Position numbers and translations under genes: made by a program
From: a virus
Length of the DNA: 28,762 nucleotides
Reading direction: 5' to 3' (one strand)
Virus record (IMG/VR): IMGVR_UViG_3300042565_000887
Coordinates: 1-28,762 of that record
Notes under the pieces: generated by a model
What the model saw: only the letters and a program-made list of their open reading frames with translations
The model's database searches: none
Told to the model about the DNA's origin: nothing
Shown: positions 15,493 through 17,598 of the stretch, one piece after another
How the letters are laid out: every line of letters begins with the position of its first letter
How positions within the stretch are numbered: position 1 is the stretch's first letter

Positions 15493-16767
15493 TCAATTAA
15501 AGTCTTCTCTGATTTCTTTGAAAGTAAAGGTAGGCCCTGAAAATGCCAGTGGAATTGTCCAATTGCGTGCGCCGCCTCGGTTTTTGTCACAATACAATCT
15601 TCGCTGAGTTTCGTCTGATACGCCATCAACCTCAACTTTTGAAATAATGAACACGCTATCAGCATTCTGACCAATAGCCCGAGACTCGCGCAATTTACCG
15701 TAATCGTTTAGCTGTGAAGCTGTGAGGATGTGGCAACCACTGCGACGTGCTGCATTCTTCATGCGTCTGGATACGCTGGAAACGATTTCTTCCCGAGTTG
15801 CGCCCTTGCGTCCCTCTTCCTCAAGCAACTGGAGATAATCAACGACGGCTAAATCGTAGCCGCCTTGTTCGATGTCGGCCAAGATGTCTGATGCCGTGGC
15901 ATTGTCGGTGTCGATCAAATCACAACCTAGGTCTGAAAGCTCACGAATTGACCGCATAAGCATATCCTGCTGACCTCGACTCATTAGGCCATTGTAAAGC
16001 GAGGCATTATCAACGCCGCTGTCTTCGCTCAATATTCGCAACGTCTGCTCTGTAATCGGCATTTCTAGCGAATACCAAGCCACTCTGGCGCCTGATCTCA
16101 GCGCATTTCTCGCGCAGTTTTGCATGATAGCGCTTTTACCGTCGGAAGGCAGGCCCGCAAATACAGTGACACGGCCTTTCTGAAGTCCTCCGCATTTCTT
16201 GTCCATCGTATCAAACCCAGTTGTGAATCCTGCTAATGCGCCCCCTTTGCTCATTCGTTCCTGGATCTCGTCCATCGTTTGATCCATTGCCGTTTTCAAT
16301 GTTACCCGTGACAGTTTGCGGATTGTTGACTTTGCCACGGATTCCAGCGCTTCCTGAGCCTGCTCAATCGCGTTAGCGATGCTAATGCTTGAATCTTGGA
16401 ATATGGCCAGTGCTTTGGAATGCGCTTCGATATGGCACCGAGCGAGATACTTGTCTTGAACAATGCGCTTGTATTGCAGGTAATGGACAGGCGACGGAAC
16501 GAAACAATAAAGCTCTGTGATATAAGCAGCTCCGCCAATTTGCTCAAGCTCTCCCTTTTCCCGGAAATGATTAGCCAGAAGAATAGGGTCAATTGGCGTG
16601 CCTATGTCGTAAAAGGCAATAAGAGCGGTAAAAATACGCCTGTGCTTTTCAAGATCAAAAGCTGAAACATTAAGTGTATTTCTAGCCTCTCCGATTCGAT
16701 TGACTGGATCTTGTAGGAGGCATGAGAGAAGCGATGATTCAGCCTCATGTGATACTGGCATGTTCAT
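15493..16767 (-). CDS. Replicative DNA helicase, DnaB family
   Basis: A 424-residue protein, start ATG at 16767 (ATGA overlap with the initiator-like gene; the frame extends two codons further). The N-terminal domain (EAESSLLSCLLQDP, about 8-21, and HRRIFTALIAFYDIGTPID) is the DnaB N-domain. The RecA-like core has Walker A GLPSDGKS (205-212), an SLEM segment with the catalytic Glu (E235), Walker B DLAVVDYLQLL (305-315) and a C-terminal basic finger (DKNRGG). It unwinds DNA at the fork and probably is loaded by the upstream protein. No phage DNA polymerase or primase is seen. Confidence 0.93.
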   Translation of the reverse strand: MNMPVSHEAESSLLSCLLQDPVNRIGEARNTLNVSAFDLEKHRRIFTALIAFYDIGTPIDPILLANHFREKGELEQIGGAAYITELYCFVPSPVHYLQYKRIVQDKYLARCHIEAHSKALAIFQDSSISIANAIEQAQEALESVAKSTIRKLSRVTLKTAMDQTMDEIQERMSKGGALAGFTTGFDTMDKKCGGLQKGRVTVFAGLPSDGKSAIMQNCARNALRSGARVAWYSLEMPITEQTLRILSEDSGVDNASLYNGLMSRGQQDMLMRSIRELSDLGCDLIDTDNATASDILADIEQGGYDLAVVDYLQLLEEEGRKGATREEIVSSVSRRMKNAARRSGCHILTASQLNDYGKLRESRAIGQNADSVFIISKVEVDGVSDETQRRLYCDKNRGGARNWTIPLAFSGPTFTFKEIREDFN

Positions 16768-17462
16768 AAGCATGATTGAGGGCGGATTGGTTGAGCTTTC
16801 GGTTTTGGTTTCTCGTCCTCATAGCGTTTCGAGTTCAAGTAACTTGCAGGATATGGAATGTATTGTCCTGAATCTTTAGTCCAGTCTTCAGACTTACGTT
16901 GCCAGTCTAAAACATTAAGAACGGTAATGAGATCTGGTTTGATTTTGTTCCATGCTTTCAGAGCGTCTGATTTAGCGGTCTTTCTTGGGTATGCTGTCCA
17001 AAATTCCTCAAAACCTTCCCAATCCGAAGGATATACTTTCCCTTCCTTGTTCCCTTCCTTTCCCTTCCCTTCCTCCTTGGAGTCCTCCAAGATCATTCCA
17101 AGATCATTCTTGGAGTCTTCTTGGAATACGCTGGAAGCCTTGAGTTTACTTGGATTCGGCTTGTCCACCCTTTGATGCTTAGCAAAGTTCTTAATCTTAC
17201 CAATAGACCTTCCTTGATCATCTTTGCCCAGGTCAATCCACCCTACGCTGGAAAGGTCTTGGAGTGCTCTTGGAATCTTCGTGGAATCCTCCAAGAATGG
17301 AAAGACCTGTCCACGAATCAGCACTGGATTGGCTAGGAAGTATCCTTCATCGTCTGCCCAGTTGAGCAGAGCAATGGCAAGTAATCGAGTGAACTCAGAC
17401 TTACTACACAATCCTTCGTGCATCCAAAATTCAGGCTTAATGGTTCGTATTCTCATAAACAT
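16764..17462 (-). CDS. Replication initiator / helicase loader-like protein
   Basis: A 232-residue protein; start ATG at 17462 chosen because GAGGG lies 6-10 bases before it (starts at 17456 or TTG at 17474 are possible). The N-terminal winged-helix-like part (RIRTIKPEFW, SEFTRLLAIALLNWADDEGYF, RALQDLSSVGWIDL) is typical of phage replication proteins. A charged Lys/Glu/Gly linker lies at about 113-143. The C-terminal part (FEEFWTAYPRKTAKSDALKAW, YIPYPASYLNSKRYED) is the shared tail of phage O/DnaD-like initiators. It overlaps the DnaB gene, like lambda O-P. Its gene holds two 11-base repeat arrays, probably the origin, and a hairpin precedes it. Confidence 0.8.
   Translation of the reverse strand: MFMRIRTIKPEFWMHEGLCSKSEFTRLLAIALLNWADDEGYFLANPVLIRGQVFPFLEDSTKIPRALQDLSSVGWIDLGKDDQGRSIGKIKNFAKHQRVDKPNPSKLKASSVFQEDSKNDLGMILEDSKEEGKGKEGNKEGKVYPSDWEGFEEFWTAYPRKTAKSDALKAWNKIKPDLITVLNVLDWQRKSEDWTKDSGQYIPYPASYLNSKRYEDEKPKPKAQPIRPQSCL
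17039..17078. other. Polypyrimidine/polypurine tract beside the origin-like repeats
   Basis: Forty bases of nearly unbroken C/T on the plus strand (one G), coding for the Glu/Gly/Lys-rich linker on the minus strand. It directly abuts the CTTGGA array. Strand-biased tracts next to iterons are known melting regions in lambdoid origins; here the tract may also simply reflect EGK codons. Confidence 0.4.
17076..17141. repeat. Origin-like iteron array 1 (six 11-base units)
   Basis: Consecutive 11-base blocks start at 17076, 17087, 17098, 17109, 17120 and 17131: CTTGGAGTCCT, CCAAGATCATT twice, CTTGGAGTCTT, CTTGGAATACG and a weaker CTGGAAGCCTT. CTTGG and CCAAG are inverse forms, producing inverted repeats such as CCAAG-ATCATT-CTTGG. 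The 11-base period is out of step with codons, so a repeated peptide cannot explain it. Likely binding sites for the initiator. Confidence 0.65.
17247..17301. repeat. Origin-like iteron array 2 (five 11-base units)
   Basis: Blocks at 17247, 17258, 17269, 17280 and 17291: GCTGGAAAGGT, CTTGGAGTGCT, CTTGGAATCTT, CGTGGAATCCT, CCAAGAATGGA. Same word and same 11-base pitch as array 1, about 105 bases away and also inside the initiator-like gene. A single CTTGGATT lies between the arrays at 17149. Confidence 0.6.
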
Positions 17463-17476
17463 AAAATCCCTCAACT

Positions 17477-17524
17477 CTGCCGTCGAGTTGGAACGCGCCC
17501 AATGAAAAAGCGCCCCGACGGCAG
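17477..17524 (-). promoter_or_regulatory. Leader hairpin before the initiator-like gene
   Basis: Perfect 9-base arms CTGCCGTCG (17477-17485) and CGACGGCAG (17516-17524) enclose an inner GCGC/GCGC stem (17495-17498 with 17510-17513). In the mRNA the structure ends about 7 bases before the GAGGG ribosome site. It may adjust initiator dosage or mark an upstream transcript end. It contains no U-run long enough for a clear terminator. Confidence 0.5.
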
Positions 17525-17598
17525 GATTGAAGGATTAATGTTTGAATGATCATTGTATAATTGCCAGAGGGTTCCAATCCTTTACCCGGCGTCTCAGT

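Follow-up and report, generated by a model that had tools for sequence, protein, structure and literature searches.

Replication origins inside initiator genes are a kind of locus already known from the phages lambda, SPP1, Tuc2009 and TP901-1. In lambda, iterons lie in the middle of the initiator gene O, beside a melting region (PMC7466680). SPP1 gp38 is an origin-binding protein and has a site, oriL, within its own gene 38 (PMC6316719). The replisome organizers of Tuc2009 and TP901-1 bind to repeats located in the genes that encode them, and these repeats function as ori (PMC8965321); the Rep protein of Tuc2009 is annotated as containing the origin. In the RepA_N initiators of plasmids and satellites (pSK41, pTZ2162, PLE RepA), an N-terminal domain binds semi-palindromic iterons (PMC7145576). 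The phage locus described here has one feature of intragenic iteron origins, repeated sites inside an initiator gene that are under selection at the DNA level.

The window is a stretch of 28,762 nucleotides from a virus contig (IMG/VR record IMGVR_UViG_3300042565_000887, positions 1 to 28,762). It carries head-tail connector, recombination and replication genes, nearly all of them on the minus strand. The initiator is of the PHROG 1408 type, and the match to this family is formed by its N-terminal winged helix-turn-helix (wHTH) domain. The next gene downstream encodes a DnaB-like helicase, as the sequence-only reading had stated, and there is no separate loader gene between the two. The features are as follows.

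15493 to 16773, minus strand: DnaB-like replicative helicase gene (PHROG 19, E 8.6e-78; Pfam DnaB_C, 6.2e-39).
16764 to 17456, minus strand: replication initiator gene, 230 aa (PHROG 1408, replication initiation protein, E 8.7e-29).
~17031 to 17074, minus (coding) strand: purine-rich tract (GGAAGGGAAGGGAAAGG...) adjoining array B, read from the sequence.
17075 to 17125, minus strand: array B (array 1 of the sequence-only reading), five TC-NNN-GA/GG sites at 11-bp pitch in DNA that encodes the disordered linker; sites at 17119-17125, 17108-17114, 17097-17103, 17086-17092 and 17075-17081.
~17130 to 17136, minus strand: degenerate extra site of array B.
17163 to 17165, minus strand: codon of residue 98 (Asp, in HQRVD98KP), outside both arrays.
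17246 to 17296, minus strand: array A (array 2 of the sequence-only reading), overlapping the codons of the third helix, residues 60-70; sites at 17290-17296, 17279-17285, 17268-17274 and 17257-17263, and a degenerate one at 17246-17252.

In the AlphaFold2 model of the initiator, residues 1-110 form a winged helix (pLDDT mostly >90), residues 115-145 are a disordered linker (pLDDT <50) and residues ~143-230 form a helical C-terminal domain that is modelled with less certainty. The C-terminal domain is common to other phage initiators. The third helix, coded by array A, is the expected recognition helix of the winged helix. A sequence search of solved structures with the initiator returned no useful match. 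The best structural neighbour found by Foldseek was 4pt7 'initiator' (E 8e-3), a weak match of a kind that many winged-helix regulators give likewise. Just upstream of the start codon, at 17465-17536, there is an inverted repeat, with 21-nt arms that are 86% complementary and lie 30 nt apart, which is a possible terminator or control element.

The word CTTGG/CCAAG occurs in one 11-bp register at 17076, 17087, 17098, 17109 and 17120, with a degenerate sixth copy at ~17130, and again at ~17247 (degenerate), 17258, 17269, 17280 (degenerate, CGTGG) and 17291. The two arrays are mutually out of phase, their nearest sites being 138 bp apart (12.5 x 11). The whole window contains only two exact 11-bp chains of TC-NNN-GA, at 17086 and at 17257, each of 4 sites. 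The arrays were compared with a null in which synonymous codons are shuffled; this keeps the protein and the codon usage and does not keep dinucleotide context. A cluster of five in-register CCAAG/CTTGG words arose in 1 of 20,000 shuffles (P ~5e-5), and the 13 in-register pairs of the gene were reached in none of the 20,000 (null mean 0.44). When any 5-mer at 11-bp pitch was allowed, a cluster like that of the window appeared once in 2,000 shuffles. Other pitches in the initiator gene (5-10 and 12-24) gave nothing comparable, except 22, which is 2 x 11. Positions and shuffles confirm the claim of the sequence-only reading that two arrays at an exact 11-bp pitch lie inside an initiator-like gene. 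It had also argued that protein repeats cannot cause the pattern, and shuffles that preserve the protein do not reproduce the arrays.

Selection on the sites was examined in six genes, the window's own and one from each of five relatives; over the full length, the proteins of these relatives share 48-81% identity with that of the window. All array sites are kept in place across the six genes, and within the arrays amino acids change while the DNA words persist. The outer TC/GA bases differ in 0.9% of comparisons, the spacers in 40% and the remainder in 29.5%. At third positions of codons for the same amino acid, 8% differ inside the cores and 51% elsewhere; the spacing is thus kept while synonymous codons vary, as had been proposed. 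At the level of sequence, this comparison demonstrates selection that acts on the DNA words independently of the protein. The middle three bases alternate between CAA and TTG among the six genes, which inverts a site without moving it. Because the middle switches while TC and GA stay nearly constant, the unit reads as TC-NNN-GA, a near-palindrome usable in either direction. The unit originally given as CTTGGA is better written as TC-NNN-GA.

The arrays recur across a broad family. Two scans of viral contigs and phage records yielded 177 genes, 97 of them non-redundant, and the 96 with a recognisable domain end were used to count linker words. A linker word is found at least three times at 11-bp pitch in 65 of the 96 genes (null 7.7, max 12). 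Because family members are related, P values across the family overstate independence. No phased linker word was found by this detector in about a third of the family, for example in several Pseudomonas and Acinetobacter phages. The spelling of the word is lineage-specific and includes CCAAG, CGACG, CTCGCGAG, CTCAC/TCACTGA, CCGGA and others. A word defined from the linker alone is present in phase at region A in 150 copies, against 56.1 +/- 4.0 expected (max 68), and this excess is large at pitch 11 only, other pitches not being comparable. The prophage genes of 57 further bacterial genomes form an independent set; 26 of these genes have a phased linker word (null 3.8), and the linker word occurs in phase at region A 36 times vs 17.8 (max 23). 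The initiator genes contain 41 chains of at least three TC-NNN-GA at exactly 11 bp, and the 491,897 bp of DNA around them contain 0. When 2.9 million viral contigs were searched blind at the DNA level for four TCYWRGA spaced by 11 bp, 22 loci came up, of which 17 are in initiator genes, distant members among them; one locus (L203) has the window's own word at both array positions. The 11-bp array of L017 (GAACA x5) is weak against the protein-preserving null (11/500).

Some loci of these searches are of a different kind. The blind matches outside recognised initiator genes are L201, L213, L216, L202 and L209; L213 and L216 contain TCCTAGAAAAA repeats outside a clear initiator gene, and L209 is a 97-aa fragment. 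The initiator of a faecal phage (L027) has seven linker words at gene nt 351-411 at a pitch of exactly 10 bp, not 11. In L008/L039, the N-terminal half of the initiator and array A match the window's family; the contigs diverge just before array B and have no matching frame beyond it, which reflects either a rearrangement or an assembly join.

A natural exchange of cassettes bears on the link between the sites and the protein. In L011, L013 and L014, a different N-terminal domain is present at gene nt 8-426, and both flanks are ~95% identical to the window's relatives. L012 carries a further N-terminal domain in place of the window-type one. The C-terminal domain and the downstream DNA are unchanged in all four, and the old arrays have left together with the exchanged N-terminal half. 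The swapped-in domains are unrelated ones, and the exchanged part forms a clean recombination cassette that ends at residue 143. Since the swap replaces the wHTH domain, the arrays and the purine tract, these move as one unit. The cassette of L012 brings its own word, GTAACG x5 at 11, 10, 11 and 21 bp (1/500 shuffles), with copies also just before the start codon. No significant array was detected in the L013 cassette (GCCAT x3, 75/500 shuffles).

The amino acid at position 98 covaries with the third base of the half-site. In the 87 members that were classified, 25 of the 27 with Asn98 have the half-site TCA, and all 55 with Asp98 have TCG or TCC; the two Asn98 exceptions of the joint call, L110 and L298, are both weak calls. 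Residue 98 is the best predictor among all N-terminal columns. The next best, 62, 59, 66 and 63, have their codons within array A. When the half-site is read from array B only, starting at codon 105, the counts for Asn vs Asp are 17:0 vs 0:17, and in the hold-out set 6:2 vs 0:16. Array A alone points in the same direction; the discovery set has eight exceptions among its Asn members (13:8 vs 0:23), and the hold-out set gives 3:0 vs 0:9. The hold-out numbers are the cleaner ones, as part of the discovery set had served to frame the hypothesis. A tree test of independent changes at residue 98 gave one supported pair, the 70-odd-residue domain having almost no supported branches. The association may therefore reflect shared ancestry, and for the same reason we rely on the hold-out set and on the closest disjoint pairs that differ in site class, where in 16 of 20 the TCA member has Asn and its partner has Asp or Ser. 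Residue 98 is a candidate for the residue that specifies base 3 of the half-site. Sequence comparison establishes the architecture of the sites, the selection on them and their link to the protein. The earlier proposal of helically phased sites for the encoded protein is supported by the match of words between A and B, by the cassette swap and by the covariation with residue 98, and the same evidence supports the encoded protein as the putative reader of the sites.

The polypyrimidine tract that had been described as abutting array 1 is present at ~17031-17074, where the coding strand carries the purines. In 68 of the 96 members the linker contains a stretch of 30 bases of which at least 27 are purines; the N-domain contains one in 0 members and the C-domain in 1. 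G and A are about equal in the tract, and it is not AT-rich, in contrast to the melting elements typical of described intragenic origins. In many members it is a GGGAACAG repeat at 8 bp, which yields the peptide GNREQGTGNREQ. The tract is a candidate melting or single-strand loading element. In the linkers of L188 and L120-L169 (gene nt ~390-485), a common phage peptide, GNREQGTGNREQGTG, arises from the 8-bp repeat GGGAACAG read in all frames. The repeat is placed directly after the 11-bp array there, and what lies behind the peptide looks like a DNA-level feature.

The two arrays are very probably the replication origin of the phage, bound by the protein of the same gene. This role is suggested by the family and by the position in the gene. 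GC skew, which had been put forward as a check, shows no minimum at the arrays near 17 kb in the window, a linear fragment with genes running nearly all one way. Physical binding, melting, helicase loading and origin activity are inferred, after the example of lambda O and the replisome organizers, in the following scheme. Each site would be an imperfect palindrome of two TC-N half-sites that face each other. At an 11-bp pitch, every bound winged-helix domain would sit on the same side of the DNA helix, so that a filament or a wrapped complex is possible. Several winged-helix copies would bind at A and B, with the DNA between them bending or looping. The strands would open at the purine/pyrimidine-asymmetric tract beside array B, and the C-terminal domain of the initiator would deliver the phage DnaB encoded next door. 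The broader proposal, to which we give an even chance, is that, across a broad family of phage and prophage initiators, the origin and the protein that reads it evolve together as a single DNA segment, with sites on the recognition-helix codons, a second array in the linker and residue 98 behind the wing (Asp or Asn) setting base 3 (G/C or A).

The sites might instead be bound by the initiator mainly for autoregulation or copy number control, through autorepression or handcuffing, and not for the start of replication. Iteron initiators often autoregulate, array A is early in the gene and the L012 cassette word also stands directly before the start codon. The arrays are, however, mostly inside the gene, past the start and beside a conserved strand-asymmetric tract, and for TP901-1 and Tuc2009 the repeats inside the gene are reported to be the ori (PMC8965321). 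We regard a mainly regulatory role as unlikely.

It is very unlikely that another protein reads the arrays as a site for partition, incompatibility or packaging. Phased direct repeats of ~10-11 bp are known from ParR and similar proteins, and the pitch seen here would fit them. On the other hand, the word tracks residue 98 of the initiator itself, L011-L014 lost the old arrays along with the exchanged N-terminal half, and no partition gene was seen among the window's ORFs viewed by eye.

Neutral tandem-repeat slippage, without function, could be imagined in a disordered linker that also has simple purine repeats at 7-8 bp pitch. We give it hardly any weight: slippage would neither preserve TC/GA while the spacers diverge nor invert single units in place, and it would not put the same word into a folded domain 130 bp away. 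That repeats in the protein or codon bias generate the pattern is next to impossible: related residues such as DSK and LED do recur in the linker, but 11 is not a multiple of 3, shuffles that keep the protein fail and the amino acids vary where the DNA words stay. The protein-repeat, codon-bias and slippage readings were rejected on the shuffles, the A/B word match and the TC/GA conservation.

Database annotations of phage initiators mostly lack an origin. The two-array design locates a candidate origin to a few hundred bases, together with the spelling of its sites, from sequence alone and in many phages and prophages. The residue-98 link provides a testable residue-to-base rule for recognition of an origin by its initiator. 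If origin and reader are one piece of DNA, specificity could shift through a single codon together with the arrays, or through exchange of a ~420-bp cassette; the cassette swap suggests that a single recombination event can give a phage a new replication specificity while the helicase is kept. In the open-licence literature, we found no description of the two-array 11-bp design, of the residue-base link, of a TC-NNN-GA form shared across lineages or of an array over recognition-helix codons.

Among the known systems, the likeness to lambda that had been suggested holds for the architecture, whereas no sequence homology between lambda O and the initiator was found by profile. The iterons of lambda O, at O nt 348-432, have the position of array B. 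Lambda has 18-bp iterons ~20-24 bp apart, a single array, an AT-rich tract and the separate loader P, unlike the window's initiator with its 11-bp pitch, 7-bp core and two arrays. SPP1 oriL differs from the window's locus in its AT-rich unwinding element and separate loader gp39. The RepA_N initiators of plasmids and satellites have a different iteron format, and the Foldseek likeness to them is weak. The lactococcal P335 replisome organizers sit in DnaD-like PHROGs, unlike the PHROG 1408-type initiator, and profile comparison of the Tuc2009 and r1t proteins with it gave no recognisable homology (hhalign probability <5%, E ~0.008 for a single pair). For Tuc2009, r1t and TP901-1, no second array over recognition-helix codons was found, and their words differ from those of the family; TP901-1 has no exact 11-bp array by the detector. 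With the detector applied to Tuc2009 and r1t as a control, Tuc2009 has AACCA x4 at 11-bp pitch at gene nt 342-375 (synonymous null 2/200) and r1t ORF11 has GGAAC x4 at the same pitch at gene nt 315-348 (3/200), in both cases at the gene position of array B. The lactococcal replisome organizers are closer precedents for this locus than lambda.
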